Source of the DNA: a virus
Virus record (IMG/VR): IMGVR_UViG_3300037480_000036
Location: 1-48,186 of that record
DNA: 48,186 nucleotides
Reading direction: 5' to 3' (one strand)
Shown: piece by piece, positions 2,310-24,712 of the stretch
How the letters are laid out: each line of letters begins with the position of its first letter
How positions within the stretch are numbered: the stretch's first letter is position 1
Made by a program: the position numbers and the translations under genes
The notes under the pieces: generated by a model
The model's database searches: none
The model's input: the letters and a program-made list of their open reading frames with translations, nothing else
What the model was told of the DNA's origin: nothing

Positions 2310-2321
2310 AGGGCTACACCG

Positions 2322-3581: not shown

Positions 3582-4224
3582 AATGCAGAAGATGGAGTGT
3601 GCCATCAGTGAAGTCAAAATGGACCCGTCAACAGGCGAGTTCACTTGTTATGGTAACGTCAAAGGTAATGTTGACCACGCCTTAGATAAAACTATGAACG
3701 GCGCTTACGCAGATAGTATTAAAGCCCATAAGTCTGCTGGAACAATGCCTCAAATGTTCTGGATGCACAAATCACACGATTTGCCGGTTGGTGTATGGTT
3801 AGACATGGAAGAAGATCCTAAAGGTCTGAAGATGCGAGGTCGCCTAAGTAAAACAGCACTTGGTTCTGACATTGAAATCTTAGCCAAAGATGGTGCGCTC
3901 AACATGTTCAGCATTGGCTACTGGGTTGAAGATGAAAAGTGGAACAACGAAGGTTACAACGAGTTACACAAGATACACGTTACAGAAGTATCATGGGTTA
4001 CACGTGCTTGCAATGAAGAATCTGTGTTGTTAGATATTAAATCTAAAATGGACGATGGCGAATTACCAACTAAGCGTGAACTTGAAAAGGTATTACGTGA
4101 ACAGTGTGGTTTTAGTAAACGTCAAGCTAATCGCATCACTAACAGTTATAACCCTGTTGTGGATACTGATACGACTGAACTTGAAGCTATGATGAAAGGG
4201 TTTATCGACCTACCTGATGCTTAA
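3571..4224 (+). CDS. Prohead protease, HK97 (S78/U35) family
   Basis: Serine protease that matures the prohead by cleaving the capsid delta domain. The core motif FWMHKSHDLPVGVW carries the likely catalytic His66, and NMFSIGY carries the likely nucleophile Ser114; both match the family. Length is 217 residues. ATG 3571 is preferred because AAGGTGGA lies just upstream inside the end of the portal gene; a GTG at 3562 is possible but lacks that spacing. The last about 60 residues form an Arg/Lys-rich helical tail not needed for catalysis. The 3' end overlaps the converging HTH gene by 23 nt. Confidence 0.92.
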   Translation: MKNKMQKMECAISEVKMDPSTGEFTCYGNVKGNVDHALDKTMNGAYADSIKAHKSAGTMPQMFWMHKSHDLPVGVWLDMEEDPKGLKMRGRLSKTALGSDIEILAKDGALNMFSIGYWVEDEKWNNEGYNELHKIHVTEVSWVTRACNEESVLLDIKSKMDDGELPTKRELEKVLREQCGFSKRQANRITNSYNPVVDTDTTELEAMMKGFIDLPDA

Positions 4225-4651
4225 TGTTTAACTCATCACAATAAGATTGTGCCGATTCAGAAAGGGTGAAGAAGTTTTCTCTACCTATTATCTTATCGGT
4301 GCATTTCTTACTGTCTTTTTTAATTGCATAACCGTTCAGCACTTGCATAACTACGAACTCATTTTTATACCGTTTTGGCAAGTGACAGCCTCGTATTAAG
4401 TTGTAAGTGGTTTTTGTCGAAAGACCCAACTTCTCAGCTGCGTCATGGATTGTTCCACCCTCGTTAATTATTGCCAGTACGGTATCTTTTCTCACCTGTT
4501 TCCTGTACGTCAACAGTGTAATACCGTGGCGCGTCAAGAAGCGATTAAGTATTGCAGGGTCAACATCGTATTTTTCTGCTATTTGTAATACTGGAATAGT
4601 CAGTGATAATTCCAGTATGTTAGGTATGTCTGTGTATTCTAATTCGTTCAT
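4202..4651 (-). CDS. Helix-turn-helix DNA-binding protein, inserted in the head module
   Basis: A 149-residue protein on the opposite strand from all surrounding head genes. Residues about 22-40 (IAEKYDVDPAILNRFLTRHG) and 68-90 (DAAEKLGLSTKTTYNLIRG) look like two helix-turn-helix units, so DNA binding is likely. The target is unknown. It starts at ATG 4651 with AAGGA upstream and has its own CRP-type promoter at 4689-4731. Own promoter, opposite strand and position between protease and capsid genes fit a moron-type insertion. It could be a transcription factor, including for the phage's repeated operators, or a relative of homing-endonuclease DNA-binding tails. Confidence 0.75.
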   Translation of the reverse strand: MNELEYTDIPNILELSLTIPVLQIAEKYDVDPAILNRFLTRHGITLLTYRKQVRKDTVLAIINEGGTIHDAAEKLGLSTKTTYNLIRGCHLPKRYKNEFVVMQVLNGYAIKKDSKKCTDKIIGRENFFTLSESAQSYCDELNIKHQVGR

Positions 4652-4688
4652 GTTTGTTCCTTAATTTAAGGGTTGAGTAATGGGCTGA

Positions 4689-4731
4689 ATCTTAGAACAC
4701 TTCGCACCTGAATACTGTGAACTAAGTCACA
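4689..4731 (-). promoter_or_regulatory. CRP-type class II promoter A, for the HTH gene
   Basis: Read on the reverse strand: TGTGA-CTTAGT-TCACA at 4731-4716, then 21 nt, then TAAGAT at 4694-4689 as the -10. Counting from the -10 puts the operator centre at -41.5. The geometry is the same as in promoters B, C, D and E. There is no consensus -35, as expected for an activator-dependent promoter. Confidence 0.75.
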
Positions 4732-4747
4732 GATAACACAAGTAACT

Positions 4748-4776
4748 TGATATTGGCAAATATAACGCTTAAACTG
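4748..4776 (+). promoter_or_regulatory. Forward sigma70-like promoter for the capsid gene
   Basis: TTGATA, 17 nt, then TAAACT, lying divergent to the CRP-type promoter A and upstream of the major capsid gene. The -10 is embedded in TTAAACTGACA (4769-4779), which recurs exactly at 6739-6749 in the second divergent cassette. Confidence 0.5.
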
Positions 4777-4871
4777 ACAGCATTAAGTAGTGGTCTACTT
4801 TAATGACGTTGTGGTCAACGTGAACATAAAAAACATAACCTTAACCTAAACCTAAATATTGGAGTCCACTA

Positions 4872-6233
4872 ATGGATGAATTAAAGAAATTACTTGAAGC
4901 CATGACGCTCAAGTTTGAAAAGTCACAAGAAGCACGTGTTGCTGCTGAAAAAGCATTAACAGGCCAAGTTGAGGCACTTGATGCTAAATACGTTGAACTT
5001 GAAAAGTCAAAAGACGCTGATGAAGTCAAAGCACTTAAAAAGTCTATCGCCAATCTTGAAGATGAGATCAGTGATGTACGCACTAAAGCTAAAGCATCTT
5101 TCCAACCTAACGTAGATGAGCACAAAGCTGTTAAAGCTGTTGTTGTTTCGTCAATCGGTGCAATGTTGAAACTTAACGGTTCAGCTGGCGAAGGTAATGT
5201 TAAAGACTTACTAAGTGCTGCTGGTAACATGATCACTGATAAAGTGAAAGCGTTGAACATCGGTACACCTGAATCAGCAGGTTTAGCGATTGCTGAAGTG
5301 TTAAGTCGTGATGTTATTCACTACGCACGTGAATATTCACCGATTATGGGGCTAGTTGGCCGTGATCCTGTGATGACTCGTAACTACCGTAAATTGGTAC
5401 TTGTTGGTTACCCTGCTGTTGCCACTGGTGTAGAGAACATTCCTGGTTCTGTATTACCACAAACAGATACACAGACCTATGCTGAAATCCGTAGTAAAAC
5501 GTGGAAAGTGTACGCTAAACCACGTATTACAGACGAGGCAATGACTGCACCTGATATCGATGTATATGGTGAGCTGTTAGTGTTACTTGGACAAGAAATG
5601 GGTATTTACCAAGCAGCACAAGTGCTTCAGGGTACTGGTGTTGATGACGCTACTCAAACTAATGCACGTGGTATCTTATCTGTACGTACAGATATTACAG
5701 ACCTTACGGGTGAGTCTTGGAAACCAACTTTAGCAGCTGATCCTGCTGATGCACGTGACCATGATATTTACCCTGCTAAAGCAACTGGTGTATCTGGTGC
5801 GTTAGGTTCTGATGATGAAGCTATCGTTAACCTGTTTATCGATATTATCAACGAACACCCTTCAATGTTCTTGTCTGGTAGCTCGTTCTTAATGAATCGT
5901 AAAACTAAAGGTGTTATTGAGAAAGTACGTGATGCTGATAATCACCCTATCTTCATCAATAACTACAAAGATGGCGGTGTACCTACAATCATGGGTTATC
6001 CTGTTATTATTGATGACACAATGCCTGATATTGCTGCTGATTCAACACCGATTATTTTCGGTACGTTAAGTCGTGCATTCTACTTGAACGATGGTGACAT
6101 TGATAAGATGTTACTTGACCCGTACACGATTGATCAGTGTACGTTAGTTAAAACGTCTAAAGAGATGTTTGAGCGTGTTGGTAACTCTGATGCGATTAAG
6201 ATTATTGCTTGTACCACTAACGGTCCTGCATAA
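4872..6233 (+). CDS. Major capsid protein with N-terminal delta (scaffold) domain, HK97 fold
   Basis: Builds the icosahedral shell. Residues 1 to about 80 are a charged coiled-coil, the delta domain that acts as internal scaffold and is removed by the prohead protease. The remaining about 370 residues match the HK97 gp5 type, with the late motifs GYPVIIDDTMPD and IIFGTLSRAFYLND near the C terminus. GGAG at 4861-4864 supports ATG 4872. The gene has its own forward promoter and is followed by a strong terminator at 6257, so it forms a separate, likely highly expressed unit. Confidence 0.95.
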   Translation: MDELKKLLEAMTLKFEKSQEARVAAEKALTGQVEALDAKYVELEKSKDADEVKALKKSIANLEDEISDVRTKAKASFQPNVDEHKAVKAVVVSSIGAMLKLNGSAGEGNVKDLLSAAGNMITDKVKALNIGTPESAGLAIAEVLSRDVIHYAREYSPIMGLVGRDPVMTRNYRKLVLVGYPAVATGVENIPGSVLPQTDTQTYAEIRSKTWKVYAKPRITDEAMTAPDIDVYGELLVLLGQEMGIYQAAQVLQGTGVDDATQTNARGILSVRTDITDLTGESWKPTLAADPADARDHDIYPAKATGVSGALGSDDEAIVNLFIDIINEHPSMFLSGSSFLMNRKTKGVIEKVRDADNHPIFINNYKDGGVPTIMGYPVIIDDTMPDIAADSTPIIFGTLSRAFYLNDGDIDKMLLDPYTIDQCTLVKTSKEMFERVGNSDAIKIIACTTNGPA

Positions 6234-6256
6234 CACTTAACGTGTTAGATGTGAAG

Positions 6257-6283
6257 AAGCCCACTTAGTTGTGGGCTTTTTGT
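6257..6283 (+). terminator. Rho-independent terminator after the capsid gene
   Basis: Perfect stem AAGCCCAC/GTGGGCTT (6257-6264 and 6271-6278) with loop TTAGTT and a following T run. Placed 24 nt after the capsid stop. It may also stop the converging reverse operon. Confidence 0.88.
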
Positions 6284-6471
6284 TATCTCAACTTACTACC
6301 AGTGTGAACAAACACACCTTCGTCGTTTAATTCATAGAACTGAAACGTGGGTACAATCTCACCCATTACGTTTACCATTGTTCGTGTTTTGTAACGTGTA
6401 ACACCTTCAGCAACACAAATCGTTTGACCGCTAAGTGGTCCACCTTTACATTCATAACGAATCATGTGCAT
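6283..6471 (-). CDS. Small GGPLSGQ-motif phage protein
   Basis: A 62-residue protein of unknown role. Residues 9-15 (GGPLSGQ) are the hallmark of a small-protein family common in phages. It ends in an aromatic beta-rich stretch (TFQFYELNDEGVFVHTG). It is a paralogue of the forward gene at 15442-15606, which has GGPLDGQ in the same place. It is the second gene of a two-gene reverse operon, starting 2 nt after the zinc-ribbon gene stop; an in-frame ATG two codons later is an alternative start. Function unknown. Confidence 0.75.
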   Translation of the reverse strand: MHMIRYECKGGPLSGQTICVAEGVTRYKTRTMVNVMGEIVPTFQFYELNDEGVFVHTGSKLR

Positions 6472-6473
6472 GG

Positions 6474-6641
6474 CTATTCCCCATCAGGTAAATTACGCTT
6501 GTCGATGTGCATAAGGTGTGTAGCTTCACCACCACATTGAGGGCAAGTACATTTACCCTTTACAGTTTCAACAGCGTATTCTTTCACTGTTTCAGTTAGA
6601 CGATAACCACATTCACACATTTTAATAATTCGGTCTTTCAT
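6474..6641 (-). CDS. Small zinc-ribbon protein
   Basis: A 55-residue reading frame on the reverse strand. It starts at ATG 6641 with CGGAGTAA upstream and begins MKDRIIKMCECGYRL. It holds two Cys pairs, CEC at residues 9-11 and CTCPQCGG at 32-39, which is the pattern of a treble-clef or rubredoxin-like zinc ribbon. It lies first in the reverse operon behind CRP-type promoter B. Binding of nucleic acid or protein is plausible; no specific role can be read. Confidence 0.72.
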   Translation of the reverse strand: MKDRIIKMCECGYRLTETVKEYAVETVKGKCTCPQCGGEATHLMHIDKRNLPDGE

Positions 6642-6673
6642 TGCTATTACTCCGTTGTTTAATTGATGTAGAG

Positions 6674-6716
6674 ATAGTAGAACAGTTACTAAACGAATAC
6701 TGTGAGCATTGTCACA
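6674..6716 (-). promoter_or_regulatory. CRP-type class II promoter B, for the zinc-ribbon/GGPLSGQ operon
   Basis: Read on the reverse strand: TGTGA-CAATGC-TCACA at 6716-6701, exactly 21 nt, then TACTAT at 6679-6674. The operator centre is at -41.5. The 6-nt context TGTTC-TA before and into the -10 is shared with promoters A and E. Confidence 0.78.
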
Positions 6717-6744
6717 TTGTCAAACATCAGTCAATAAGTTAAAC
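6716..6744 (+). promoter_or_regulatory. Forward sigma70-like promoter for the connector and tail genes
   Basis: TTGTCA, 17 nt, TAAACT, divergent to promoter B. The -10 lies in the same TTAAACTGACA string (6739-6749) seen upstream of the capsid gene. It would restart forward transcription after the capsid terminator. Confidence 0.5.
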
Positions 6745-6765
6745 TGACATAATAAACAGGAGCTA

Positions 6766-7296
6766 ATGGCTATGTTACCGTTCAAAATACTAACACAAGA
6801 CCCTTTCACAGCTATCACACTTGACGAAGCTAAGTCACAGTGTCGATTAATGCCATCTTTCACCCTTGATGACACCTATATCACGTCACTTATTACTGTT
6901 GCAGTAGATGCAGCACAAGAGTACGTTCACTGGATGCTATCACCTGGTACTGTTAAGCAGTACAGCGCGAATGGCGGTGATATTATGTTGTACGGTAAAT
7001 ATGTAACGGGTATTACAGAGGTCACAAGCGGTGGTACCGTGCTCACTACTGACAACTATGAATATAATGATGTAACAGACGTTGTGAGCGTTAACCCTGC
7101 GTACAGTGACGTTAACGTGACATACGCTTGTGGTGCAACAGCTCTGCAATTACCACAAGCTGTTAAGCAAGGTATCTTGATGATGATCTCAACCATGTAC
7201 AACAACCGTGAAGATTTCATCACAGGTCTGAGTGTTGAGAAGATGCCGTTAACCTCCATGAAATTACTTAGTTTGAGTCGTATTTATGTATCATAA
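6766..7296 (+). CDS. Head-tail connector, gp6-like
   Basis: Probable head-tail connector (adaptor) that docks under the portal ring. The 176-residue protein begins with the family-typical pattern: Pro-rich start, then ITLDEAKSQCRL and a four-helix region with YITSLITVAVDAAQEYV. AGGAG four nt before ATG 6766 marks the start. It is the first gene after the second divergent cassette and overlaps the head closure gene by 11 nt. HK97 gp6 is the closest described counterpart. Confidence 0.86.
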   Translation: MAMLPFKILTQDPFTAITLDEAKSQCRLMPSFTLDDTYITSLITVAVDAAQEYVHWMLSPGTVKQYSANGGDIMLYGKYVTGITEVTSGGTVLTTDNYEYNDVTDVVSVNPAYSDVNVTYACGATALQLPQAVKQGILMMISTMYNNREDFITGLSVEKMPLTSMKLLSLSRIYVS

Positions 7297-7612
7297 TATT
7301 AACTCAGGTCGATTGCGCCAATACGTTGAGGTGTTCGTACCTAGTAACGACACTGATGACTACGGACAGCCAATTGGCAATGTACCAGTGTTTGATGCAC
7401 GTGCTGAGGTTAAGACTGTCAGTGGTGCTAAAGTACAGGATTATGGAACCACAACCACCAGCACAATCATCACAGTGTTGATGTGGTTCGATGAACGTGC
7501 TGAAGATAAACAAGTGTTGGTTTACAACGGTGTTGAATACATGGTGAACCACGTTAAACCAGATGAACTAATGAAATCAATGATCCTAACATGTGAGGTG
7601 ATCAAGAAATGA
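7286..7612 (+). CDS. Head closure / head-tail joining protein
   Basis: A 108-residue, mostly beta protein of the SPP1 gp16 / HK97 gp7 type (head-tail adaptor family). It begins with the typical NSGRLRQYVEV strand and has DDYGQPIG and the late YMVNHVKPDELMKSM motif. It likely forms the ring that seals the packaged head. It overlaps the connector gene and is overlapped by the next gene (ATGA), so it belongs to one translational chain. Confidence 0.83.
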   Translation: MYHNINSGRLRQYVEVFVPSNDTDDYGQPIGNVPVFDARAEVKTVSGAKVQDYGTTTTSTIITVLMWFDERAEDKQVLVYNGVEYMVNHVKPDELMKSMILTCEVIKK

Positions 7613-8979
7613 GTAATACTTTCATAACACCTGGTGTGTGGACAGCTATCAGCACTGAATCATCTGGTACATTTTCACTAACAGCAGGAGGTCAACACTG
7701 TATTTATGATGGTGTGCCACCTGATTCACTTGTGGGTCACCGTTATACAGGTAAACCTGTTGACTTCATCACAGGTGCTACTGAATCGGTTTACGTGAAA
7801 GCATCAAGAGAATGTTTCGCTGTTGGTGATGTTGAAGGTGTGGAACCACCACCACCTGTTGTTGAGGGTGACAACATCGTACAGTTCACCAACCCACCAG
7901 GTATTACAGGCACTTGGTATTTCGGAGATGGCAATAGCTCAACTGCTGTTGACCCTGTCCATGAATATGCAGTGCATGGCACTTATAACGCTACATTTGA
8001 TAGTGATACAGGTACGGATGACTTGATTATTGATGTTATTGTTACAGCTTTACCTTTACCTACAGCGAGCTTTACAGCTACAGCAAGAGATCCAGATACT
8101 AATATTTATGACTTTGTTGGTTTGGGTGGAGATACCTATAAGTGGGTTATTGATGATACCGAATATATAGGTCAGAACGTTACACATATATTTAACCCTA
8201 CGCCTGTCTTAGGTGATACGTATTTGTCTGAACTGGTAACTACTGATATAAATGCCAACACTGACTATTCATCTCAATCATTATTTGTACTCCAGCCAAA
8301 TATACTACCTGTAGGTGACTTCTCATACCTTAAAAATGAATTAGTCGTATCTTTCGATTCTACAGTTGATGATCCAGACGGTAATAATAGTAATATCGTG
8401 TATTTATGGGACTTTGGAGATGGGAATTCGTCTACAGACAGAGATCCTATCCATGCTTATGACCCCCCAGCAATACCAGAAGATCCTAGCGGACAGACAT
8501 TCACTGTTACTATGACAGCAACCGATGAACGTGGTGGTGAGTTAATTGTTCAACACACCCTAACTGTTTATGATTACCAAAAGCTTGGCCCAAATCTGAT
8601 TGTTAATGGTGATTTCGAGACTGACGATGCGAGTACTTTTGATGCCTCAAGTTCCACAATAGAGTTAGTTGGTGGTGTGATGACAATAACCAGTACGAGT
8701 GGTTCAAGTGGGAGAATGTCTACAGATGTAACTGGAATGAATGTAGGTGCTCAATATAAATTATCATTAGATTATAACGTAGAAGTTAACAGTAATCAGA
8801 CTGTTAAGAATCTGGTTGGCTTTGCTACGGAGGTAAGTGTATCTTTAAATTCCTTAGTACCTGTTACTGAAGTTATATTCCTTACTGCGGATGAAGTAAA
8901 TGGAGCAATAAAAGTATATGCAGGTGTTGTTGGTAACACAGTAATACTCACAAGAATAGCTTTAGAGGAGGTCTTATAA
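7609..8979 (+). CDS. PKD-domain surface protein with N-terminal shared module and C-terminal carbohydrate-binding-like domain
   Basis: Residues 1-75 are a small module shared with the genes at 11366 and 12950 (pattern VWT...GGQ..I...P.DSLVGHRYTG...ESVYVKA). A Pro-rich linker then leads to PKD-type Ig domains: one with WYFGDGNSST near 105, a degenerate one near 170, and one with LWDFGDGNSST near 270. The last about 125 residues open with NLIVNGDFE and resemble CBM4/9-type galactose-binding-like domains. It is likely displayed on the head or neck, binding host or environmental glycans. From about base 8040 codon use shifts to more ATA and AGA, suggesting acquired DNA. Confidence 0.8.
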   Translation: MSNTFITPGVWTAISTESSGTFSLTAGGQHCIYDGVPPDSLVGHRYTGKPVDFITGATESVYVKASRECFAVGDVEGVEPPPPVVEGDNIVQFTNPPGITGTWYFGDGNSSTAVDPVHEYAVHGTYNATFDSDTGTDDLIIDVIVTALPLPTASFTATARDPDTNIYDFVGLGGDTYKWVIDDTEYIGQNVTHIFNPTPVLGDTYLSELVTTDINANTDYSSQSLFVLQPNILPVGDFSYLKNELVVSFDSTVDDPDGNNSNIVYLWDFGDGNSSTDRDPIHAYDPPAIPEDPSGQTFTVTMTATDERGGELIVQHTLTVYDYQKLGPNLIVNGDFETDDASTFDASSSTIELVGGVMTITSTSGSSGRMSTDVTGMNVGAQYKLSLDYNVEVNSNQTVKNLVGFATEVSVSLNSLVPVTEVIFLTADEVNGAIKVYAGVVGNTVILTRIALEEVL

Positions 8980-11360
8980 TGGACGTTAAACCTTATTCAA
9001 TCCCAGATTACAAACCGTATTTTGGAGGAGAAGATTATATAGAAATGGAGAGGCCCCCCTTACCTGATCCGTGGGATTCTCCAGTTGCAGGGTTTTATTA
9101 TGTTAATCCTGATGACGATAATGCTACAGATTCAGATAACACTAACGGAAGTAGACTTGTACCTAGGAAAACGTTACCTAATACTACGCCACTTGGATAT
9201 GATATTGAGCGTCCTCCTTTAGCCGCTGGTTCTGTGGTTATTGTCTCAGGTCATCTTCCCACTTCTGGTAATGGAAAGATAGCTTTCTGTGCAGAGGGTA
9301 CAAATGCTAACCCCGTATGGTTGGCTGGTGAGTCTGCTGAGAACCGATGGTCTAGTGGTCAGAATATATTCCTTATGGGTCAATGTATGATACTGGAATA
9401 TATGGAGCTGATTGAGGATGGAGCTGGTAGCCCTAGTATGAGGGTTCACGATGTATACCCTGACAACCCTTGCAATCGTGTCTGCTACAGATATTTCTAT
9501 GGAAAGGGGAGTGGAGATTTCGTTAGTGGCTCAAACACCTCTCTATCTATAACAGGAGATTCTACTAATGTAGATGAAGGCAATCCTTTAAAGCGTACTG
9601 ACGTTATCATATATGGGTGTGATATTACAGAGATGGGTAGTACAGATTGGACTCATGAGAATGGAGGTGATGCTGGCTCTCATGACTACCATGCATATTC
9701 AATTAGTAAAGCAGTTTCAAGAGTGTGGGTGCTTAATAATATCGGTGATCGCTGTCAAGGTGATGGTATCCAGATTGGTGTCGCACAGCAAGCGTCAGAA
9801 TTATATCCAGATTACTTATATATTTCAGGCAATCAATTCCATACAAACGGAGAAAACTCCTTTGATGTCAAGAAAGTAAGAAAGGTAATTTTCTCTAAAA
9901 ATGATTGCGTGACGAGAGGCGCTAGTATAATTACTCATGACTGGTGCGAGGAAGTGTTTATTCTTAATAATGATATCCATGACTCTTACGGTGGATTAGC
10001 ATTGCAATCCTCTTTAGGTGTTTATGCATTTGGTAATAGGATTTGGAATATACAAGCAGGTGATCACCACCCAGATCAAACAGGTGTTATATGGGGTCAG
10101 ACTTATGCTATAAATACTAGAGGTTGTACTGAGGTTTACATCTTAAACAATACTGTCCATAGTTATCAACGAGGAGTACAAGCACATACTTCAACTGATT
10201 GTAAATTCTCTAATAATGTTTTTACTGGCAAGCTAAGTAGGGAAGGTCAAACAGATCCTTTAGGAGAAGATCTTATTGTTGAATCTGGATTTAGGGATGA
10301 TGCTCTGATGAGAAATAACTTCTTTGACAGTTACCGCGGGAGGTTCGCATCTACCTCTGCTATTAGTACTGATGTAGAAGATCTTAATACTTATGGGAAT
10401 GTAGGGAACACTGGTAATGCTAATTCTAGTAACATTAATCAAGAGAGTGCCCAAGGTATTACTCATCTTACATTGCTCTCAGGTTCAGATATGATTGATG
10501 CAGGGATATCTGAAGACTTAATCTATGTTAATAATCTATTCAACACTACCTTCTCATTATCCATAGACAGGGATCTGCTTGGGTATGTGAGATTACAAGG
10601 TAGTGGGTATGATATAGGTTTTAATGAATACGGAGGGGTATTCGCACCTGCTCTACCTCTGGCACCAAAAAGTTTAAGTATTGATGCAGGAGAAGATAAG
10701 ATAGAATGGACTTTAGATTCTTTAAATGAAACTGGTATCACTGTCTATGAAGATGACATAGTTATAGCTACTCTTGGAGCAGGTGCTACAGAGTATTCTC
10801 ACGTAGGAGTCGCAACATCTATTAATCAATACAGGGTTGGTGCAAGTAATGCTGAAGGTGAAGCTCAGAGTAAAGGTATCTATTCTGATATTATGTCAGT
10901 AACTCAATTACCAGACACATTCACAGAAGATTTAAACATAACTAAATCACACTTAGCAGTACGACCTTACGAATATAGTAATGATGGGTTGTTAAACATA
11001 GGTGAGCCACAGTATGTAGGTGATAAGTTCGGTATACTTAGTACTGATATTGAATTTACCAAAGATAGCGCTAGTGTGGGTAACGGTTTTAATTACATTA
11101 CCAACGATTCAGGTTCGATATCTGGCTCAGTATCAGGCACAGGTGATTGTGATATCATCACAACTATAAACAGCTATGATGGTGTTGCTACTGGTCGATT
11201 ACAGGTTGGGAGCACCTATGTCGATATCACCTGTACTGAGGGTGCTTTTGATAAGTACAAAACTACGCTTGGTGTTACAGGTACAAAAGAATATACTTTT
11301 ACACCAATCACTACTAATGCAAAACATGCTATTGGCTTAGTAAGCTTACAGGAGAAATAA
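8979..11360 (+). CDS. Right-handed beta-helix protein, possible polysaccharide depolymerase
   Basis: A 793-residue protein. Residues about 200-470 show repeated short beta-strand turns with asparagine ladders (VWVLNNIGDRC, LYISGNQFHTNG, VFILNNDIHDS, VYILNNTVHSY), the hallmark of pectate-lyase-type parallel beta-helices. Residues about 560-640 look like a fibronectin-type III domain, followed by a beta-rich C-terminal domain. It starts in a TAATG overlap with the PKD gene. Codon use (many AGG, AGA, ATA) differs from the head genes. Likely a glycan-binding or cleaving spike displayed with its neighbours; the active site cannot be named. Confidence 0.78.
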   Translation: MDVKPYSIPDYKPYFGGEDYIEMERPPLPDPWDSPVAGFYYVNPDDDNATDSDNTNGSRLVPRKTLPNTTPLGYDIERPPLAAGSVVIVSGHLPTSGNGKIAFCAEGTNANPVWLAGESAENRWSSGQNIFLMGQCMILEYMELIEDGAGSPSMRVHDVYPDNPCNRVCYRYFYGKGSGDFVSGSNTSLSITGDSTNVDEGNPLKRTDVIIYGCDITEMGSTDWTHENGGDAGSHDYHAYSISKAVSRVWVLNNIGDRCQGDGIQIGVAQQASELYPDYLYISGNQFHTNGENSFDVKKVRKVIFSKNDCVTRGASIITHDWCEEVFILNNDIHDSYGGLALQSSLGVYAFGNRIWNIQAGDHHPDQTGVIWGQTYAINTRGCTEVYILNNTVHSYQRGVQAHTSTDCKFSNNVFTGKLSREGQTDPLGEDLIVESGFRDDALMRNNFFDSYRGRFASTSAISTDVEDLNTYGNVGNTGNANSSNINQESAQGITHLTLLSGSDMIDAGISEDLIYVNNLFNTTFSLSIDRDLLGYVRLQGSGYDIGFNEYGGVFAPALPLAPKSLSIDAGEDKIEWTLDSLNETGITVYEDDIVIATLGAGATEYSHVGVATSINQYRVGASNAEGEAQSKGIYSDIMSVTQLPDTFTEDLNITKSHLAVRPYEYSNDGLLNIGEPQYVGDKFGILSTDIEFTKDSASVGNGFNYITNDSGSISGSVSGTGDCDIITTINSYDGVATGRLQVGSTYVDITCTEGAFDKYKTTLGVTGTKEYTFTPITTNAKHAIGLVSLQEK

Positions 11361-11365
11361 ACAAC

Positions 11366-11659
11366 ATGGCCATCACAGTCAACGTATCAATCACCACCCA
11401 TAATGTGTGGGTGGAAGTAATCACAGGTGCTGTTGTTGGTGTTGCCAGTGTGACAGGTGGTGGACAATACTATGTTAGTAGCACAGCACCTGTTGATACA
11501 TTTATCGGTCATCGGTTTACAGGTGAACTCGTACCTTTCACGCTAGAAGTTGGTGAAGCACTTTACGTGAGAGGTGATACAGTAAACAATGTTGTGATGA
11601 CCCTTAAAGGCAATGACCTAAGTACATATACAACTGAATACACAGAGGAGTACGTTTAA
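11366..11659 (+). CDS. Stand-alone copy of the shared decoration module
   Basis: A 97-residue protein consisting almost only of the small module also found at the start of the 7609 protein and as the 12950 protein: TTHNVWVEV, then GGGQYYVSS, APVDTFIGHRFTGELVPF and EALYVRGD. All three copies share the IGHRFTGELV-type core. A short acidic tail follows. It probably occupies a symmetric position on the virion, as do the other copies. It ends in a TAATG overlap with the next gene. Confidence 0.75.
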   Translation: MAITVNVSITTHNVWVEVITGAVVGVASVTGGGQYYVSSTAPVDTFIGHRFTGELVPFTLEVGEALYVRGDTVNNVVMTLKGNDLSTYTTEYTEEYV

Positions 11660-12945
11660 TGTCGGCACAAGATGGTGTAAATAACATAAGAGGTCAGCAA
11701 GGGTTACCTAACAGTATTGATCCTAATTTTCACGCAGATCAATTACAGTTGGTTGTAGATGAACTACAAGAAACAAATCGCCCTTTATTAGTCACAAATG
11801 CTGATGGAACTCGTATCGGTGAGATATTCCAAGATGAGACATACGGACTGGTATTGCGAGCTAAAGACGCTGACGAGTCGCAACTACCTGTAACTCTGGT
11901 CGGCTCAACAGTTGTTGTGGGCGGTGAGAATACCATGATTAAATTCAATGGCGCGCAAGAGGGTAACTTTTTGCAGTTGGGCGCTCCTTTGGATTTGGAC
12001 GGAAACATAGTATTTCCACTAGAGGCAACACCGTTAAACGTTGAGGTTCACAGCGAGACAGCTACCAACGCAAGCGACTTAACAGTTACCACGTCATATC
12101 AGCCAATGATAACTTATGTGACGACTAAATCTTATCAACCCGACTCATCATCTGCGAGCATTCAATTTCGCGTTGAGAATTCATCGAATCAGGCGAGAGA
12201 GTTAGATTACTACATAACTGTTAATGGCGCACCTCCAACACCTGGCGATGAGTTCAGAGCAACAGTTCCAGCTAAAAGTCAGGGCGCTAATGGAGTGCTA
12301 TTAATCAGCACAAACGACAGCTCTACATCTTTAATAAACATTGGTGATACTGTTACCTGTCAAGTTAAAGCTGACGCAAGCGGCGCAGTAGTAACGGGCA
12401 CAGTTTTGGCCACTAAATTAAAACTAACACAAAACACAAGCATTCAAGATAGTGTTGCTAATATTGAAAGCGAACTCAATAACATTCAAATGTGTGACTT
12501 CTCCTTTAGCAATCCAATCCAACTTAACGACACCTTAACGGTACTAACTGGATGGGGTACTGACTATCCGTTCCTTAATGTAGGTATTACCGAAAGCGGT
12601 GGAGAGTTCACTGTTGCAAAAGGTGGTGTTTATAAGATTGACTTGGAGCGAATTTATCGTAACGACGATAGATCTCCATCTGTACCAGTTATATTACACA
12701 TAGTTGTTGAGGGTAGTGATGGGGCTGGTGGTTGGATACCAGTAATGGATAGAACCGCACCAATAATGGCAGCAACTGCAAATGACGAACCTGCTATACT
12801 CTCATTCACTACACCTGCGTTACTTCCCGTTCCAGATGGTGCTGTTTTCAGGGTTAGAGCTAGTGCAGCAGAGGGTACAGGAAGTCCGAGCGACACCTAC
12901 ATGATTCGTGCTACTATAGTTGCAACTAGAATACAAGGATTATAA
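11659..12945 (+). CDS. Virion surface protein with C-terminal C1q/TNF-like jelly-roll
   Basis: A 428-residue protein. The N-terminal about 120 residues begin SAQDGVNNIRGQQGLPN and form a beta-rich attachment region. The middle (about 130-260) is an Ig-like beta domain. The last about 140 residues (FSNPIQLND, then FTVAKGGVYKIDLERIYR and later PVPDGAVFRVRASA) have the spacing of a C1q/TNF-like jelly-roll, a fold often used as a trimeric receptor-binding head. It sits between two shared-module genes. A decoration fibre or receptor-binding role is inferred. Confidence 0.65.
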   Translation: MSAQDGVNNIRGQQGLPNSIDPNFHADQLQLVVDELQETNRPLLVTNADGTRIGEIFQDETYGLVLRAKDADESQLPVTLVGSTVVVGGENTMIKFNGAQEGNFLQLGAPLDLDGNIVFPLEATPLNVEVHSETATNASDLTVTTSYQPMITYVTTKSYQPDSSSASIQFRVENSSNQARELDYYITVNGAPPTPGDEFRATVPAKSQGANGVLLISTNDSSTSLINIGDTVTCQVKADASGAVVTGTVLATKLKLTQNTSIQDSVANIESELNNIQMCDFSFSNPIQLNDTLTVLTGWGTDYPFLNVGITESGGEFTVAKGGVYKIDLERIYRNDDRSPSVPVILHIVVEGSDGAGGWIPVMDRTAPIMAATANDEPAILSFTTPALLPVPDGAVFRVRASAAEGTGSPSDTYMIRATIVATRIQGL

Positions 12946-12949
12946 AACA

Positions 12950-13189
12950 ATGGCAAATACAACGAATGTACAAATTACTACCCCTAACGTATGGACTGTC
13001 GCACAAGCAGGACCATTCACAGGTGTAATGAGTATCGCAGGTAATGGTCAGTGGTGCATTAGTAGCGCTGGTGCACCTGCTGAGACACTTATCGGTCACC
13101 GTTTTACAGGTGAGTTAGTTGGTGTGGAGGTTACGACTGAAACGCTCTATGTTAAAGCTGACACACAGACAACAGTGATACTCACATGA
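12950..13189 (+). CDS. Second stand-alone copy of the shared decoration module
   Basis: A 79-residue protein made of the shared module alone: TTPNVWTVAQ, GNGQWCISS, ETLIGHRFTGELVG and ETLYVKAD. ATG 12950 is used because AAGGA lies upstream; a TTG-initiated version from 12920 would run into the preceding gene. The 3' end overlaps the tail terminator gene by 4 nt (ATGA). The three copies in 5.6 kb indicate duplication within this block. Confidence 0.76.
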   Translation: MANTTNVQITTPNVWTVAQAGPFTGVMSIAGNGQWCISSAGAPAETLIGHRFTGELVGVEVTTETLYVKADTQTTVILT

Positions 13190-13542
13190 GCCAACTAAAG
13201 CAAGTAGTAGCACTACTTAAAGATAAGCTGACTTGTGATGTGTTCACAGGTCAGATACCTGAATCACAAACAAACCCTGCTGTGGTGGTCACTAACGTGG
13301 CTAACCCATTCAGCAGGACATTGAGTGGTAAAAAGGTAGAGACATCGAGCGTATGGCGCATAACAGTTGTCGCTGAACGTCAAAGTGATGTAGAATCAAT
13401 ACTTGACGAACTCGAAGATATGGACAACAGTACAACTGTTGAGTTTCAGAAGATATTTACGAACCTTGTGCAAACAGAGTTGGGATTGACTGAACAGCCA
13501 TACCGTAGAGCGTTTTACGATTTAACCGTTTATAAACGATAA
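13186..13542 (+). CDS. Tail terminator-like protein
   Basis: A 118-residue protein with the alpha/beta layout of tail terminator or DUF3168-like proteins: an N-terminal helix (LKQVVALLKDKL), beta strands with a WRITVVAERQSD edge, and a C-terminal strand FYDLTVYKR. Such proteins cap the tail tube and join it to the head. Its place directly before the major tail protein fits. Assignment is by length, layout and position. Confidence 0.65.
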   Translation: MSQLKQVVALLKDKLTCDVFTGQIPESQTNPAVVVTNVANPFSRTLSGKKVETSSVWRITVVAERQSDVESILDELEDMDNSTTVEFQKIFTNLVQTELGLTEQPYRRAFYDLTVYKR

Positions 13543-13553
13543 GGAGTGATGTT

Positions 13554-14258
13554 ATGTCTGATGATGTAACTTTAGTAGCTGGTGCCTATTTTGAGCACTT
13601 GCAAGATGGTGTGTGGAAACGCATTCCTCGTATTACAGCAACAGGCGATACAGGCTCACTTGCTGAAGCGAAAGAAAAAACAACAACCGAAGATCGCATT
13701 AAGCGTTATTCATCTGGCTTACGTGATGGTGGTGATAAAAACCTTAAAGGTCAACGCATCCCTGTACAAGTTGCTGGTTCTGAGCATTTTGTAGATCGTG
13801 ACTTACAAGAGCTATTCATTATTCGTTGTAAAGGCGAAGAAGAAATGCAGATGCGTATTACCTATCCTGATATGGAACGTGGTGACTTCACATTCAAAGC
13901 ACTTGGTTACATGGTTGATGATGCCACTGCTGAAGATTGGAAAGTGTTCGCAGTTAACGGTAAGCAAAACAGTTTCGTTAATTGGGGTACTGCACCTACA
14001 CTAACTGCTGTTACGTTAGTCGGCACTGGCGCAGTGTTGGTTGGTGAAGGTGAGCAACTAGGTGTCACTAACACACCATTAGATGCTTATTGGGAAGTTA
14101 ATCAGGACACTTACGTTTCTGATGACAACGCAGTTGCTTCTGTGACTAAGTGGGGTTATGTAGTTGGTATCTCAGCAGGTACAGCTAACATCACTGTTAC
14201 ACGTCAAGTAGGTGATGGTACTACCGTTACTGAACAGATCGCAATCACAGTATCTTAA
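13554..14258 (+). CDS. Major tail (tube) protein with C-terminal Big2 Ig-like domain
   Basis: Forms the tail tube. Residues 1 to about 145 are the lambda gpV-like tube domain (DVTLVAGAYFEHLQ start, then RIPRITATGDTGS). Residues about 150-234 are an added bacterial Ig-like group 2 domain ending SAGTANITVTRQVG...TVS, which in other phages decorates the tail exterior and may touch cell-surface sugars. AAGGAG lies upstream of the ATG. It is followed by a hairpin and then the tail chaperone gene. Confidence 0.88.
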   Translation: MSDDVTLVAGAYFEHLQDGVWKRIPRITATGDTGSLAEAKEKTTTEDRIKRYSSGLRDGGDKNLKGQRIPVQVAGSEHFVDRDLQELFIIRCKGEEEMQMRITYPDMERGDFTFKALGYMVDDATAEDWKVFAVNGKQNSFVNWGTAPTLTAVTLVGTGAVLVGEGEQLGVTNTPLDAYWEVNQDTYVSDDNAVASVTKWGYVVGISAGTANITVTRQVGDGTTVTEQIAITVS

Positions 14259-14264
14259 CTGAAC

Positions 14265-14292
14265 ATGGCCACTGACTTGATGTGGTGGCCAT
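14265..14292 (+). terminator. Hairpin between major tail protein and tail chaperone
   Basis: Perfect 8-bp stem ATGGCCAC/GTGGCCAT with a 12-nt loop and no following T run. Probably a transcript-end or mRNA-stability hairpin that keeps major tail protein mRNA more abundant than the downstream message. A classical terminator is not supported. Confidence 0.5.
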
Positions 14293-14313
14293 ACATCACC
14301 AAGGAAACATCAC

Positions 14314-14676
14314 ATGTTAGAACTTAGCGGTTTAGTAAAACGAACACCATTCTTATTCACCGATTTAGATGGCACAGTACATGAGCTTGAAATCAGTGAG
14401 TTCACTATTGCTGATACTAAAAAATTAGTACAGTTACAGAAGCCTATTCTTGAAAATAAAGACATGGACGTATTAGATCAATCAGAGTTGATCATCTCAT
14501 CACGTATTGTATGTGCTGTGAAAGTGCGTGGTACAAATGAATACTTCTGGAATAGCATCACCGACTTAACAGGTAAAGCGTACCCTAATGAACTAGGTAG
14601 TGCACTCTACACTGAAGTTAACAAGTTAAACCCTGTTGACGTAGAATCACATGATGAAAAAAAAAGCGAATCTTAA
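14314..14676 (+). CDS. Tail assembly chaperone, short product (gpG-like)
   Basis: A 120-residue protein that would bind the tape measure protein during tail assembly. Lambda gpG-like genes sit between the major tail protein and tape measure, as here. The beginning FLFTDLDGTVHELEISEFTIAD and helical rest match the type. The last codons run through nine A residues (14657-14665), where ribosomes can slip to make the longer product. Confidence 0.82.
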   Translation: MLELSGLVKRTPFLFTDLDGTVHELEISEFTIADTKKLVQLQKPILENKDMDVLDQSELIISSRIVCAVKVRGTNEYFWNSITDLTGKAYPNELGSALYTEVNKLNPVDVESHDEKKSES

Positions 14677-14879
14677 ATAGCGGTCACGAGCTGTTAATAA
14701 AAAGAATTTGTCAAACATTACGTAGACCAGTATTTGAGGTGGAGCAGTTTCCTGCTACTGAACTTGAATACTGGTCTTGTTATTTCAGCATCGATGATAA
14801 TCAAGATAAACCTGCCGTAAAACCTGAATCTGTTGATGTAGAAACGTCTAAGAAAGGTTTTAAAGATCAATGGAAGTAA
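14314..14879 (+). CDS. Tail assembly chaperone, long product by -1 frameshift (gpGT-like)
   Basis: A slippery A-AAA-AAA heptamer lies in frame at 14658-14664. A -1 slip avoids the stop at 14674 and continues through codons for KRILNSGHELLIKR and later VEQFPATELEYWSCYFSIDD to the TAA at 14877-14879. The E-x-x-x-W segment is typical of T-domain extensions. No independent start with a ribosome site serves the second frame. The long product is a few percent of total in lambda; the level here is unknown. The next gene starts 3 nt after its stop. Confidence 0.85.
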
Positions 14880-14882
14880 CCT

Positions 14883-15359
14883 ATGGCTAAGACTCGAATA
14901 ACCGTTGAATCCGACCTTGATGAATTAGTCAAGGATATGCTCATCCTCGCAGAAGATTTCCCTGATGTAATAGCTGAAGCAGCCACCGAAGAAATGAAAG
15001 TGTTTGAGTCTGCCATACAGCGTAATTGGTCCACTATGGTTCCTTGGGGTAAGGTTGGTGATTACGTGTACGACTCAATAGGTTATAACGTAGCAATTGC
15101 ACCAGGTACAAACGATGTTGTGGGAATGGCAGGTGTGTTCTTGCTAGATGCTGTTAACACTAAACATGGTAAAGAAAAGAAAGACATCAAAGCACCTAAA
15201 CTGGCTTATTGGGCTGAGTTCGGCTTCACACCTAATAATGGTAAACCACATGCAGGTGTGCCATTTATGAGTAACGCATTCCATGCTACATTAGCAGAAC
15301 GAGAAAAAGTTTTCGCTGATACACTCCAACTAGCAATCAATAAGAGGATGAACAAGTAA
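14883..15359 (+). CDS. HK97 gp10-like tail completion protein
   Basis: A 158-residue protein. The C-terminal half, AYWAEFGFTPN then PHAGVPFMSNAFHA, has the conserved Glu-Phe-Gly and Pro-Phe-x-x-x-Ala pattern of HK97 gp10-type proteins, which complete the head-tail junction or tail. The N-terminal helix LDELVKDMLILAEDFPDVIAEAA also fits. The unusual feature is its place: it follows the tail chaperone, whereas gp10-like genes normally lie before the tail terminator and major tail protein. Confidence 0.75.
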   Translation: MAKTRITVESDLDELVKDMLILAEDFPDVIAEAATEEMKVFESAIQRNWSTMVPWGKVGDYVYDSIGYNVAIAPGTNDVVGMAGVFLLDAVNTKHGKEKKDIKAPKLAYWAEFGFTPNNGKPHAGVPFMSNAFHATLAEREKVFADTLQLAINKRMNK

Positions 15360-15402
15360 TGAGATGTTCGTCACAGTTTTTCTCTGTTGGTTGTTCTATC
15401 AT
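15360..15402 (+). promoter_or_regulatory. CRP-type class II promoter E (forward)
   Basis: TGAGA-TGTTCG-TCACA at 15360-15375, exactly 21 nt, then TATCAT at 15397-15402. One half-site differs from consensus by one base. Geometry is identical to the four reverse promoters, and TGTTC-TA precedes the -10 as in A and B. It would drive the GGPLDGQ gene at 15442. Confidence 0.65.
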
Positions 15403-15441
15403 GTGTTTACTCAATAACGAGTTAACACAGGAGAATACATT

Positions 15442-15606
15442 ATGTCACACACAGTAATGTTGCGAGGTGGACCACTTGACGGTCAAAAGCGGGTTCGTAC
15501 TTTTCTTGCTGATATCATGCGGATTAAATCACCTGATAAAAAATGTTTCCATGTCTACTTAAAAGAAAACAACAACCTTTATTTGTTTAACCGTACAGAA
15601 GATTAA
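15442..15606 (+). CDS. Small GGPLDGQ-motif phage protein (paralogue of 6283-6471)
   Basis: A 54-residue protein too short for usual gene lists. It starts at ATG 15442 after an AGGAG and begins MSHTVMLRGGPLDGQ, then a short beta-rich body ending NLYLFNRTED. The motif and the aromatic C-terminal strand match the reverse gene at 6283. Both copies sit behind CRP-type promoters inside the virion gene block. Function unknown. Confidence 0.75.
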   Translation: MSHTVMLRGGPLDGQKRVRTFLADIMRIKSPDKKCFHVYLKENNNLYLFNRTED

Positions 15607-15712
15607 CCACCCTTCAAACCAATGCACATGCTCAGTCGTGTGCATAACCCTCGCACCATCCCCTATTGTTCGTTATACTATTACCCATCAATAATCAACA
15701 GTGGGCTATAAC
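15607..15712. other. Intergenic stretch with a hairpin
   Basis: Holds ATGCACATG/CGTGTGCAT at about 15622-15645, a 9-bp stem with one G-U pair and a 6-nt loop but no T run, and a TATACT hexamer at 15674-15679 that could be a -10 for the tape measure gene. No gene is seen. Confidence 0.4.
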
Positions 15713-18256
15713 ATGAGTGAACAAAGAATACAGACCGTCAAGATCGATTGGCAGACAGGTGACGCTAAGACTAAGGTTGTTGAGTTCACTCGTTCTATTA
15801 AGGGTACTGATAAAGCTGTTGAAGAACTCAACAAGACGTTAGGTGATAGCGCGACTGTTACCAATAAAACAACACTCTCTAAAAAAGAGATGACAGCACA
15901 GGCACGTAAAGAGTTCACTGCTGCCACTCGACTTGTTACCAAGTACAACAATCTTACTGACTCACTCAAGCAACAGTCGAAAATGTACAATATGACCGAT
16001 GATGCTGCTGAGATTTATGCTGCTCAAATGCGACTTGGTGCTAATGCCACTAAAGAGCAGAAGGATGAAGTTGCTCGACTTATTACAGTTATGCAAAAAC
16101 AACGTGCTGTCAGTGGTAAAGTGCAAGGATCGATGCGTGGGTTACGTGGTCAAGCACAGAACCTAGGTTGGCAAATGCAAGATGTCGCGGTACAGATGCA
16201 GGCAGGCACAGATGCAATGGTTATCTTCTCGCAACAGGGTTCGCAACTTGCTTCAGGTTTTGGACCAAGTGGTGCGCTTGTGGGTGCGTTAATCGCAGTA
16301 GGTGGTGCAATTGCTGGTGTGGTGTTGAAAACTGCTGAGATGAAAGAGATTCAGAAGTTAACCGCTGTTAGCACTAAAGAGTTGACTGCGCGACTATATG
16401 AGTTGGCCAAAGCAGGTAAAGAGCTTAACTACCATGAAGAAGAAGCAACTAAAGACTTACAGAAAAGAAAAATAAAAAACACAATCAAAGCATTAGAGGA
16501 TCAAAGAAAGCAAACTGCTGAGTTACGCAAGGAGTCTGAGCGACTTTCTGAAGTGTTGAGACAAAAAGAAAAGTTCGCATCTACACAGACTGAACTTGAT
16601 AGACAGATGGACATACAGAAGCAGAAAGACGCAACAGAGGCACTTGTTAGTTCTACTGCTAAACAGCTTACATTAGAGAAAGACCTAGCCAAAGCAAAGA
16701 GAAATCTGCAAAACATCATCGATGGCAAACCTTTCGAGAAAGACACAAAAGAGAAGAAAGAAAACATCGAGGTGATGGACGCTCATATACAGGCACATTA
16801 CAAATACCTAGAGGCGCTAAAGAAAGAAGATGACGCTGCTAAAGCAACAGTAGCTGGTTGGGAAAACAAAACATTCTTAATGGGTGAGAGTGCAAGAAGT
16901 CAGGCACTTGCCACTGCGATGATCAAGGCCACAACGAGTGCAGAGGTCGAACACCTACCAACACTACAACTGGCAATTAACAAGTATTACGACAAAAAAG
17001 ATGCAATAGACGCACTGAACAAGTCACAAAAAGAACAGTTGTCGTTTGAAAAACAGTTGCTTGCTCAGATGGTGGAAGAAGCTGATGAGGCCGAAAGAGT
17101 CAGAAAACTAGCGTCTGATGAACTAGCACAGTCACAAGCAATTATTGAATCTTGGAAAACTAAGATTAAATTGTTAGGTCTTAGTGCCAGAGAGCAAGCA
17201 CTTCTCAACGCTCAACTGTCTGTAACAACAAGCGCACAAGTTGCACATTTACCTGTGCAAGAGAAGTTGATCAACAAATATTATGACGAGAAAGACGCAC
17301 TTGAGGCAGTGGCACAAGCTGAGAAAGATCGCGTTAGATTGTCCAAAGAAGCGTACAAGCAAGCTGAAGCAGAAGTTGCTCGACGCGAAAAAGTCTTAGG
17401 TGGGGCAAGTAGAGAAATTGGTGCAGGTAAAACTGGTGATCCAGTGCTTGATGAAATGGTGAAGCACAACCGACTAATGGAAACACTGAACGAAGAACGT
17501 AAAAAAATAGGGTGGTCGAGATACGAAGAACACAAACGTATTAACGAGTTGACCGAAGCAGAACAATCGCGCCACAAGCAAGTAATGGGTGACTTAGCAC
17601 ACGCTGGTTTACAGGCCGAGTATCAAGCAGGTGCAGAGTTCTTGAGTGGCATGACTAACGTGATGGCACAACTCACAGCAATAGCACAGGATGGCAGTAA
17701 AGAGGCTGAGGCAATGTTCTATGCCACTCAAGCTGTTGCGCTAGCATCTACAATAGTGAACACCGAGATGGCAGCATCTAAAGCGATGGCGTTCAGTTCA
17801 ACAGGTACACTTGCTGAGATGATATCTTCAGCACTTGCTGTACGTTCACTAGGTTACGCATCTGCTGGTATCATAGCAGGTACAACATTCGCTGGTATGT
17901 TCGATAAAGGTGGTGTCATTCCCAACGGTCAAGCAGGTGTTGTTGCTGAACGATACGATGAAATGGTTGGCGGTACGATGGTGTACAACAACTCAGGTTC
18001 AGGTCTTAACGTGACAGGTAGTAAAGATACTGCGGCAATGGTTGGTGGTGGAGGTCTTAACGTCACGGTGGTTAATAACGCAACCGGCAGTGTTAAAACT
18101 GAAGTTCAGCAAATCGATGAAAACAATGTTAAGATATTAATAGCTGAACACTTCAGTAAAAACATTGATAAAAGCGTGTCTGGTGTTATTGGTAAAAAAG
18201 GTAGTAAAACAGATAAAGCGATGCGTCAGAACTTCAACACCACGAGGAAATACTAA
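15713..18256 (+). CDS. Tape measure protein
   Basis: Sets tail length and is ejected ahead of the DNA. The 847-residue, largely helical protein has long charged coiled-coil stretches, a hydrophobic segment GALVGALIAVGGAIAGVVL near residue 190 that could cross the inner membrane, and a C-terminal lambda gpH-like part (ATQAVALASTIVNTEMAASK, then GMFDKGGVIPNGQ). Two related units of about 55 residues occur near 380 and 480 (KTFLMGESARSQAL and KIKLLGLSAREQAL, each ending KYYD-KDA). At about 0.15 nm per residue it predicts a tail near 125 nm. ATG 15713 is chosen over a GTG at 15701. Confidence 0.93.
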   Translation: MSEQRIQTVKIDWQTGDAKTKVVEFTRSIKGTDKAVEELNKTLGDSATVTNKTTLSKKEMTAQARKEFTAATRLVTKYNNLTDSLKQQSKMYNMTDDAAEIYAAQMRLGANATKEQKDEVARLITVMQKQRAVSGKVQGSMRGLRGQAQNLGWQMQDVAVQMQAGTDAMVIFSQQGSQLASGFGPSGALVGALIAVGGAIAGVVLKTAEMKEIQKLTAVSTKELTARLYELAKAGKELNYHEEEATKDLQKRKIKNTIKALEDQRKQTAELRKESERLSEVLRQKEKFASTQTELDRQMDIQKQKDATEALVSSTAKQLTLEKDLAKAKRNLQNIIDGKPFEKDTKEKKENIEVMDAHIQAHYKYLEALKKEDDAAKATVAGWENKTFLMGESARSQALATAMIKATTSAEVEHLPTLQLAINKYYDKKDAIDALNKSQKEQLSFEKQLLAQMVEEADEAERVRKLASDELAQSQAIIESWKTKIKLLGLSAREQALLNAQLSVTTSAQVAHLPVQEKLINKYYDEKDALEAVAQAEKDRVRLSKEAYKQAEAEVARREKVLGGASREIGAGKTGDPVLDEMVKHNRLMETLNEERKKIGWSRYEEHKRINELTEAEQSRHKQVMGDLAHAGLQAEYQAGAEFLSGMTNVMAQLTAIAQDGSKEAEAMFYATQAVALASTIVNTEMAASKAMAFSSTGTLAEMISSALAVRSLGYASAGIIAGTTFAGMFDKGGVIPNGQAGVVAERYDEMVGGTMVYNNSGSGLNVTGSKDTAAMVGGGGLNVTVVNNATGSVKTEVQQIDENNVKILIAEHFSKNIDKSVSGVIGKKGSKTDKAMRQNFNTTRKY

Positions 18257-18753: not shown

Positions 18754-18756
18754 CAC

Positions 18757-24699: not shown

Positions 24700-24712
24700 C
24701 GGAGCAACTAAA

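Follow-up and report, generated by a model that had tools for sequence, protein, structure and literature searches.

Homologous small modules and exchangeable cargo between the head closure and tail terminator genes of siphophages: candidate virion spikes

Appendages described on heads and necks

The head spike of RcGTA consists of Rcc01079, a jelly-roll base that sits as a pentamer on capsid pentamers, and Rcc01080, a fibre that docks on the base through its N-terminal residues and binds capsule, as set out in the accessible text of PMC7296036. In the turret of HFTV1, as described in the accessible part of PMC12494034, gp30 forms a base hexamer on capsid hexamers and gp31 a head trimer, which has galactose-binding-like and deacetylase-like domains and is docked by its N terminus. 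Lactococcal 936 phages carry nps upstream of mtp, at a hotspot of presence and absence; NPS ends in a CBM or a beta-helix, is placed at the neck by immunogold, and has demonstrated host binding for one CBM (accessible portions of PMC4759559 and PMC6669499).

The locus compared here lies in a 48,186-base virus record, analysed at full length and referred to as the window, whose closest named relatives are Vibrio siphophages (73% DNA identity to the terminase and portal of D63); the phage is marine, with a host that is probably Vibrio. A further IMG/VR contig, 3300043169_000007, is 100% identical to the window over 3366-19656 at matching coordinates (window 1-20297), and therefore appears to be a second assembly sharing the window's left end. 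The window encodes three related modules of 65-80 residues in one operon, between the genes for head closure (Hc1) and the tail terminator (Tt).

Like the RcGTA spike, this locus would, as predicted, pair a small beta base with a fibre, and a cargo protein of a related phage (contig L010) matches the NCBIfam head-spike-fibre domain below its cut-off. Unlike in RcGTA, the modules lie between Hc1 and Tt, are repeated, are sometimes fused to cargo, and are exchanged together with it; a comparison by sequence, with the module profile against any PDB chain, gave eight chance-level matches (E 0.28-0.87) and thus nothing better than E 0.28. HFTV1 likewise combines a small base with an exposed protein, and the chain taken to be its base is similar to the module model (Z 6.9), whereas HFTV1 is archaeal and has a single base gene, and cassette exchange is unreported in the accessible text of PMC12494034. 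With the 936 NPS, as described in the accessible portions of its accounts, the locus shares variable genes near the neck/tail junction, a presence/absence hotspot, and CBM or beta-helix ends; the difference is that NPS, from phages of Gram-positive hosts, is by that description a single long protein that brings its own collar domain, ~180 residues at the N terminus, and a coiled coil, which sets it apart from a module of 65-80 residues. With these three published precedents, the claim of the sequence-only reading that this would be an unusual surface system finds no support in the sense of an unprecedented kind. What looks new is the Hc1-Tt slot, the presence of three anchors in an array, and the exchange of module and cargo as a cassette, an arrangement not found in the openly accessible literature searched.

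Three homologous modules and their cargo in one operon

All genes of the operon are on the + strand. The left wall of the slot is Hc1 (7286..7612; phrog_25 E 2.2e-12, PF05521 E 6.5e-9), preceded by a head-tail adaptor gene of the Ad1/gp6-like type (6766..7296; phrog_442 E 1.4e-20, PF05135 E 4.1e-9). The right wall is Tt (13186..13542), identified by a weak match to phrog_78 (E 0.003), by its position between Hc1 and the tail-tube gene, and by 92% amino acid identity to the Tt of contig L006. Between the walls lie a 456-aa protein (7609..8979), composed of module A as a fused N-terminal domain of ~68 residues (7609..7812; module HMM E 8.9e-25), two PKD stretches and a CBM_4_9-like C terminus; a right-handed beta-helix protein of 793 aa (8979..11360); module B, a stand-alone protein of 97 aa (11366..11659); a 428-aa cargo protein (11659..12945); and module C, a stand-alone protein of 79 aa (12950..13189), for which the start was set at ATG 12950, the ORF lister having taken an upstream TTG at 12920. 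From Hc1 through Tt, genes are joined by ATGA or TAATG overlaps or by gaps of a few bases, with ATGA shared between the 3' end of Hc1 and the start of module A, and again between module C and Tt; this tight packing suggests that the block is probably co-expressed with the morphogenesis genes. Downstream of Tt follow a tail-tube protein with an Ig-like end (13554-14258; C-terminal BIG_2, PF02368 E 2.5e-6) and then more tail genes. Elsewhere in the morphogenesis region, two small ORFs, 6283-6471 (-) and 15442-15606 (+), have a GGPL(D/S)GQ motif in common (blastp E 0.038, 8 residues), and the antisense ORF 6283-6471 adjoins another antisense ORF, 6474-6641, which contains CxxC.

The three modules are homologous, as the sequence-only reading had proposed for the same open reading frames. 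Pairwise local scores are 108 (A-B), 119 (A-C) and 187 (B-C), with 51% identity over 80 columns between B and C, and in 1000 shuffles of each pair the highest scores stayed below these, at 53, 46 and 57, respectively. A module HMM built from nine sequences, six of them from outside the window, retrieved the modules alone (E <= 1e-24) from 4368 open frames of the window and 30 loci, the next best frame scoring 0.65 and the best shuffled frame 0.083; B and C were assigned by this HMM and the pairwise scores. The core motifs described earlier are present with deviations, copy A reading VGHRYTGK rather than IGHR and copy B LYVR rather than YVK. A candidate fourth module, in the protein encoded at 22333-24699 (tblastn E 0.012 over 32 residues), was set aside, since the HMM does not recover it.

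Two of the three domain calls made earlier for the cargo proved right: the PKD domain of the 456-aa protein (better stretch at 8317..8544, residues 237-312; PF18911 E 3.2e-15) and the beta-helix (PF13229 E 3.3e-8, with a further NCBIfam match to NF041518 at E 4e-4, below cut-off). The third, a jelly-roll fold for the 428-aa protein, was dropped: this protein gave no convincing match in Pfam, PHROGs or NCBIfam, and its model, at pLDDT 36, is unusable. No relatives of the beta-helix protein or of the 428-aa protein were found in the phage collection, no window cargo protein matches phrog_5335, phrog_23862 or phrog_20050, and none is close in sequence to a protein characterised as glycan-binding or depolymerising. 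In the PKD protein, the C terminus (8593..8976) matches CBM_4_9 weakly and below cut-off (PF02018 E 0.09), and resembles the C terminus of a 340-aa protein of L006 (E 5e-4). Because that match is weak and the jelly-roll was unconfirmed, the description of the whole as a block of glycan-type proteins may apply to part of it only. At the tail end of the window, a tail-fibre-like protein (22333-24699) has a GDSL lipase/acetylesterase-like domain at its end (PF13472 E 2.6e-10) and is followed by a LamG-like protein of 239 aa (24713-25432; match below cut-off), which gives the phage a second, conventional set of adhesins.

A variable slot, a shared cargo pool and block exchange

Searches of a phage collection and IMG/VR, with profile searches, found a single module in each of D63, Artemius, KLEA5 and the IMG/VR contigs L006, L007 and L010, which with the window makes seven distinct phages and nine modules, D63 being counted together with the near-identical D287 and D164, and KLEA5 having been found through its cargo and its module confirmed by blastp and HMM. 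Modules B and C have no Pfam match and B no PHROGs match, and in a comparison of seven modules with PHROGs none had E < 0.08; in bacterial genomes, 16 pattern matches yielded no confirmed module. The position of the module is conserved: six of the seven phages have Hc1 immediately upstream (the L006 contig shows no Hc1), and all seven have Tt downstream, directly or after cargo. In 159E43-1b and 103E44.1, which have the capsid type of the window, Hc1 and Tt overlap without a module, and a 243-aa gene stands between adaptor and Hc1 instead, possibly with the same function shifted one gene upstream. Such a gene occupies 6200-6928 in L002, where it belongs to phrog_8198, and 5825-6553 in L003, both with an empty slot. 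The Hc1-Tt gap measures 5574 bp in the window, 5198 in D63, 1931 in L010, 1423 in L007, 806 in Artemius and 802 in KLEA5; among phages lacking the module it is 2283 bp in L014 and -3 bp in each of the two empty slots. Over these nine phages the slot thus spans -3 bp to 5.6 kb, and is hypervariable near the neck/tail junction. In L014 (6131-8944), it follows a C-terminally extended Hc1 and holds a 739-aa gene that matches a PHROG called head decoration (E 5.7e-14).

Eight of the nine modules are fused to a cargo protein or stand directly before a cargo gene, the exception being module C, with Tt next in line. Fusions, with the module as the N-terminal domain, are found in the window (A), Artemius and KLEA5; in D63, L006, L007, L010 and the window (B) the module precedes a separate cargo gene. 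Related cargo occurs in both arrangements, with phrog_5335-related sequence in the fused half of the Artemius protein (E 4.5e-44) and fused also in KLEA5, and as a separate gene behind the module in L006 (E 0.004) and L007 (E 0.039), both weak matches. Together with phrog_23862 and phrog_20050, this family supplies cargo behind the module in the relatives, and PHROGs gives none of the three a function. The cargo of L010 matches LamG_3 above cut-off (E 4e-7) and the head-spike-fibre family NF048003 at E 1e-6 and 29.4 bits, below the curated cut-off of 36 bits.

Relatives of the cargo are used in other genomes and other positions. Those of the Artemius cargo were found in 138 phage records, of which 71 are Vibrio records, and this type also follows several other small N-terminal domains, for example one of the LP.1 type in podophage 41E34.2 and one of the 1.030.O type in both PS15B.3 and MAG7; hhalign probabilities of 9% (LP.1 type) and 47% (1.030.O type) did not lead us to claim these domains as members of the module family. 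The 179-aa cargo of L010 has relatives in 230 Vibrio phage records, adjoining the capsid gene in jenny and LP.1 and standing directly after a Gp48-like gene in 1.030.O, and the 541-aa protein of D63 has relatives in 127 records, its gene pair 541 + 1060 recurring in CKB-S1 and D279. Taken together, cargo relatives lie behind the capsid gene (1.216.O, jenny, LP.1), directly after the Mu Gp48-like gene (1.030.O), after genes of the baseplate-J region (MAG7, PS15B.3) and, in D279, as a pair after injection-protein and Ant genes, which we take, from the gene order of P22, to be the tailspike position. So many positions argue that the cargo genes are adhesin-like rather than parts of the neck machinery.

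Between contigs L007 and L010, from one metagenome, the entire block of module and cargo has been cleanly swapped. Their left flanks are 96.6% identical in DNA over 1-697, up to 25 nt inside the module gene, and their right flanks 96.0% identical from 8 nt before Tt, and the sole other alignment between these flanks is 126 nt at 66%, around the module end. The flanking proteins are 92-99% identical, the modules 57%, and the cargo is unrelated (190 + 195 aa in L007 versus 377 aa, with LamG, + 179 aa in L010). With flanks that differ by 3-4%, the two contigs would represent two strains rather than one assembly bubble. Cargo of the 195-aa type also adjoins Tt in L006 and L013, whose Tt proteins are 92% and 89% identical to that of the window, whereas the window lacks it; module C and the module of L006 have a 46-bp patch at 95.7% identity, which is compatible with recombination inside the module.

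Contig L006 itself (1955-6015) carries an LP.1-like capsid set (MCP 67% identical to that of LP.1), a 96-aa small protein and the 340-aa protein, which has weak LamG and CBM-like parts; for its connector gene (6012-6314) no relative was detectable among the five LP.1 genes compared. This capsid set is joined to a window-like module and Tt, so that L006 is either a head/tail recombinant or a chimeric contig.

Four of six first separate cargo proteins begin with M[GS][YF], against two of 116 annotated CDS, one of which is again the D63 cargo; the pattern was noticed post hoc, and the cargo of the window lacks it. As a docking signal it was retained solely as a lead, the GAGGATTAATTATGGG-like junction DNA itself being conserved, as would be expected also of a ribosome-binding site or a recombination joint.

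A candidate base for exchangeable adhesins

The structure prediction of the module alone that the sequence-only reading had suggested, made for module B from six sequences, gives an all-beta fold of seven strands at pLDDT 79. In BFVD it has 10 matches at E <= 1e-3, each an uncharacterised or unnamed phage protein of 83-131 residues, which places the module in a widespread set of small phage proteins. Foldseek against the PDB gave no match at E 0.001, with cupins in the lead; with a structure aligner, scores of 8.2-8.4 go to PirA, a gamma-carboxylase and a designed beta-helix, and among the matches listed the highest-scoring chain of a tailed virus is 8qpg_TD, from the HFTV1 turret (Z 6.9, 80 residues, rmsd 2.8), with cupins, PirA and a designed barrel scoring equal to it or above. 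We read chain TD as the turret base from its length of 114 residues, the turret head domains reaching residue 413. On the aligner's own yardstick a Z of 6.9 denotes a common arrangement, so that the likeness supports a turret-base reading short of proof and is not decisive. The RcGTA base is not among the fold matches listed, an absence that is uninformative there.

With moderate confidence we favour the reading that the block encodes two-component virion spikes with exchangeable adhesin cargo. The module, small and all-beta, would form an oligomeric base on the outside of the particle. The exposed fibres would be its fusion partner (PKD/CBM-like) or the products of the cargo genes that come next (the beta-helix and 428-aa proteins), presumably docked on it. 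Such fibres would hold the phage on surface polysaccharide before the tail-tip proteins engage. The Hc1-Tt gap would serve as a cassette slot, base and cargo being exchanged there as a unit, and in the window the slot would have built up an array: three bases with three cargo proteins, of which one is fused. A base with an exchangeable fibre is favoured on account of the HFTV1 and RcGTA spikes and of the match of the L010 cargo to NF048003, with the counterpoint that this match belongs to the cargo of another phage; a separate cargo gene beside a module may also reflect mere operon neighbourhood. Of the earlier proposal that the module is a capsid- or neck-binding plug, the behaviour of an anchor gains support (a stand-alone protein or N-terminal domain, with varied cargo, that travels as a block); for its site, we give a capsid position, as in RcGTA and HFTV1, an even chance, a neck position a smaller but considerable one, and positions elsewhere the remainder.

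Neck whiskers or a collar, in which a ring of modules at the Hc1/Tt joint carries hanging cargo as does the 936 NPS, are a serious contender that we nonetheless hold to be less probable. Every module lies in the neck-gene slot or adjoins Tt, and L006, which kept module and Tt (92% identical to that of the window) with an unrelated, LP.1-like capsid set (67% MCP identity), argues for the neck rather than the capsid. The precedent of nps, with its place upstream of mtp, its hotspot, its CBM or beta-helix ends and its immunogold label at the neck (accessible portions of PMC4759559 and PMC6669499), points the same way; yet the module, at 65-80 residues, does not appear to have the coiled coil or the ~180-residue collar domain described there, the nearest tailed-virus fold among the matches listed is a capsid turret, and the 739-aa gene in the same slot of L014 matches a head-decoration PHROG. 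A cryo-EM account of Avs-1, of which KLEA5 is the closest relative, bears on both sites: its accessible text (PMC13274417) has stopper gp12 and terminator gp14 built and does not mention gp13 on head or neck. If gp13 is the product of the slot gene, a guess from gene numbering, this silence could reflect an unmodelled flexible spike or the absence of the product. The accessible text of the Artemius paper gives siphovirus dimensions and mentions no appendage.

It is unlikely that the block is a receptor-binding cassette of the tail tube or tail tip, or an accessory one, inserted where the slot merely tolerates recombination. The positions of cargo relatives, tail-fibre-like in myophages and after injection-protein genes in a podophage-like genome, would suit such a cassette, but the window has tail-tip and fibre genes of its own at 19598-25432, and in other genomes the related cargo follows small N-terminal domains of different kinds, so that the anchor need not be a tail anchor. 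Least probable are assembly chaperones or non-structural accessory genes, which the small size of modules B and C might suggest: no family match to chaperones was found in Pfam, PHROGs or NCBIfam, the module is fused N-terminally in the PKD, Artemius and KLEA5 proteins, and the cargo is large, multi-domain and adhesin-like. The tail-fibre chaperone that the earlier reading had named as its refutation is thus unsupported.

Beyond the two-component spike, a broader and distinctly doubtful extension would make the module a standard adaptor for the mix-and-match display of adhesins. In such a system the type of anchor would fit a fixed virion site and gene slot, and adhesins, drawn from a cargo pool common to sipho-, podo- and myophages that infect Vibrio and certain other Gram-negative hosts, would attach either by fusion or through a short docking segment at the N terminus; three paralogous anchors would then allow several adhesins at once, possibly in mixed rings.

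If the spike reading is true, these phages have an adsorption locus outside the tail tip, exchanged as a block between near-identical marine phages, and a block swap may alter what the particle sticks to; host-range work limited to tail fibres would then miss the Hc1-Tt locus. It would also assign a testable role, as spike base or adhesin, to the 80-residue proteins and to phrog_5335, phrog_23862 and phrog_20050, a role that the isolates D63, Artemius and KLEA5 make practical to test.
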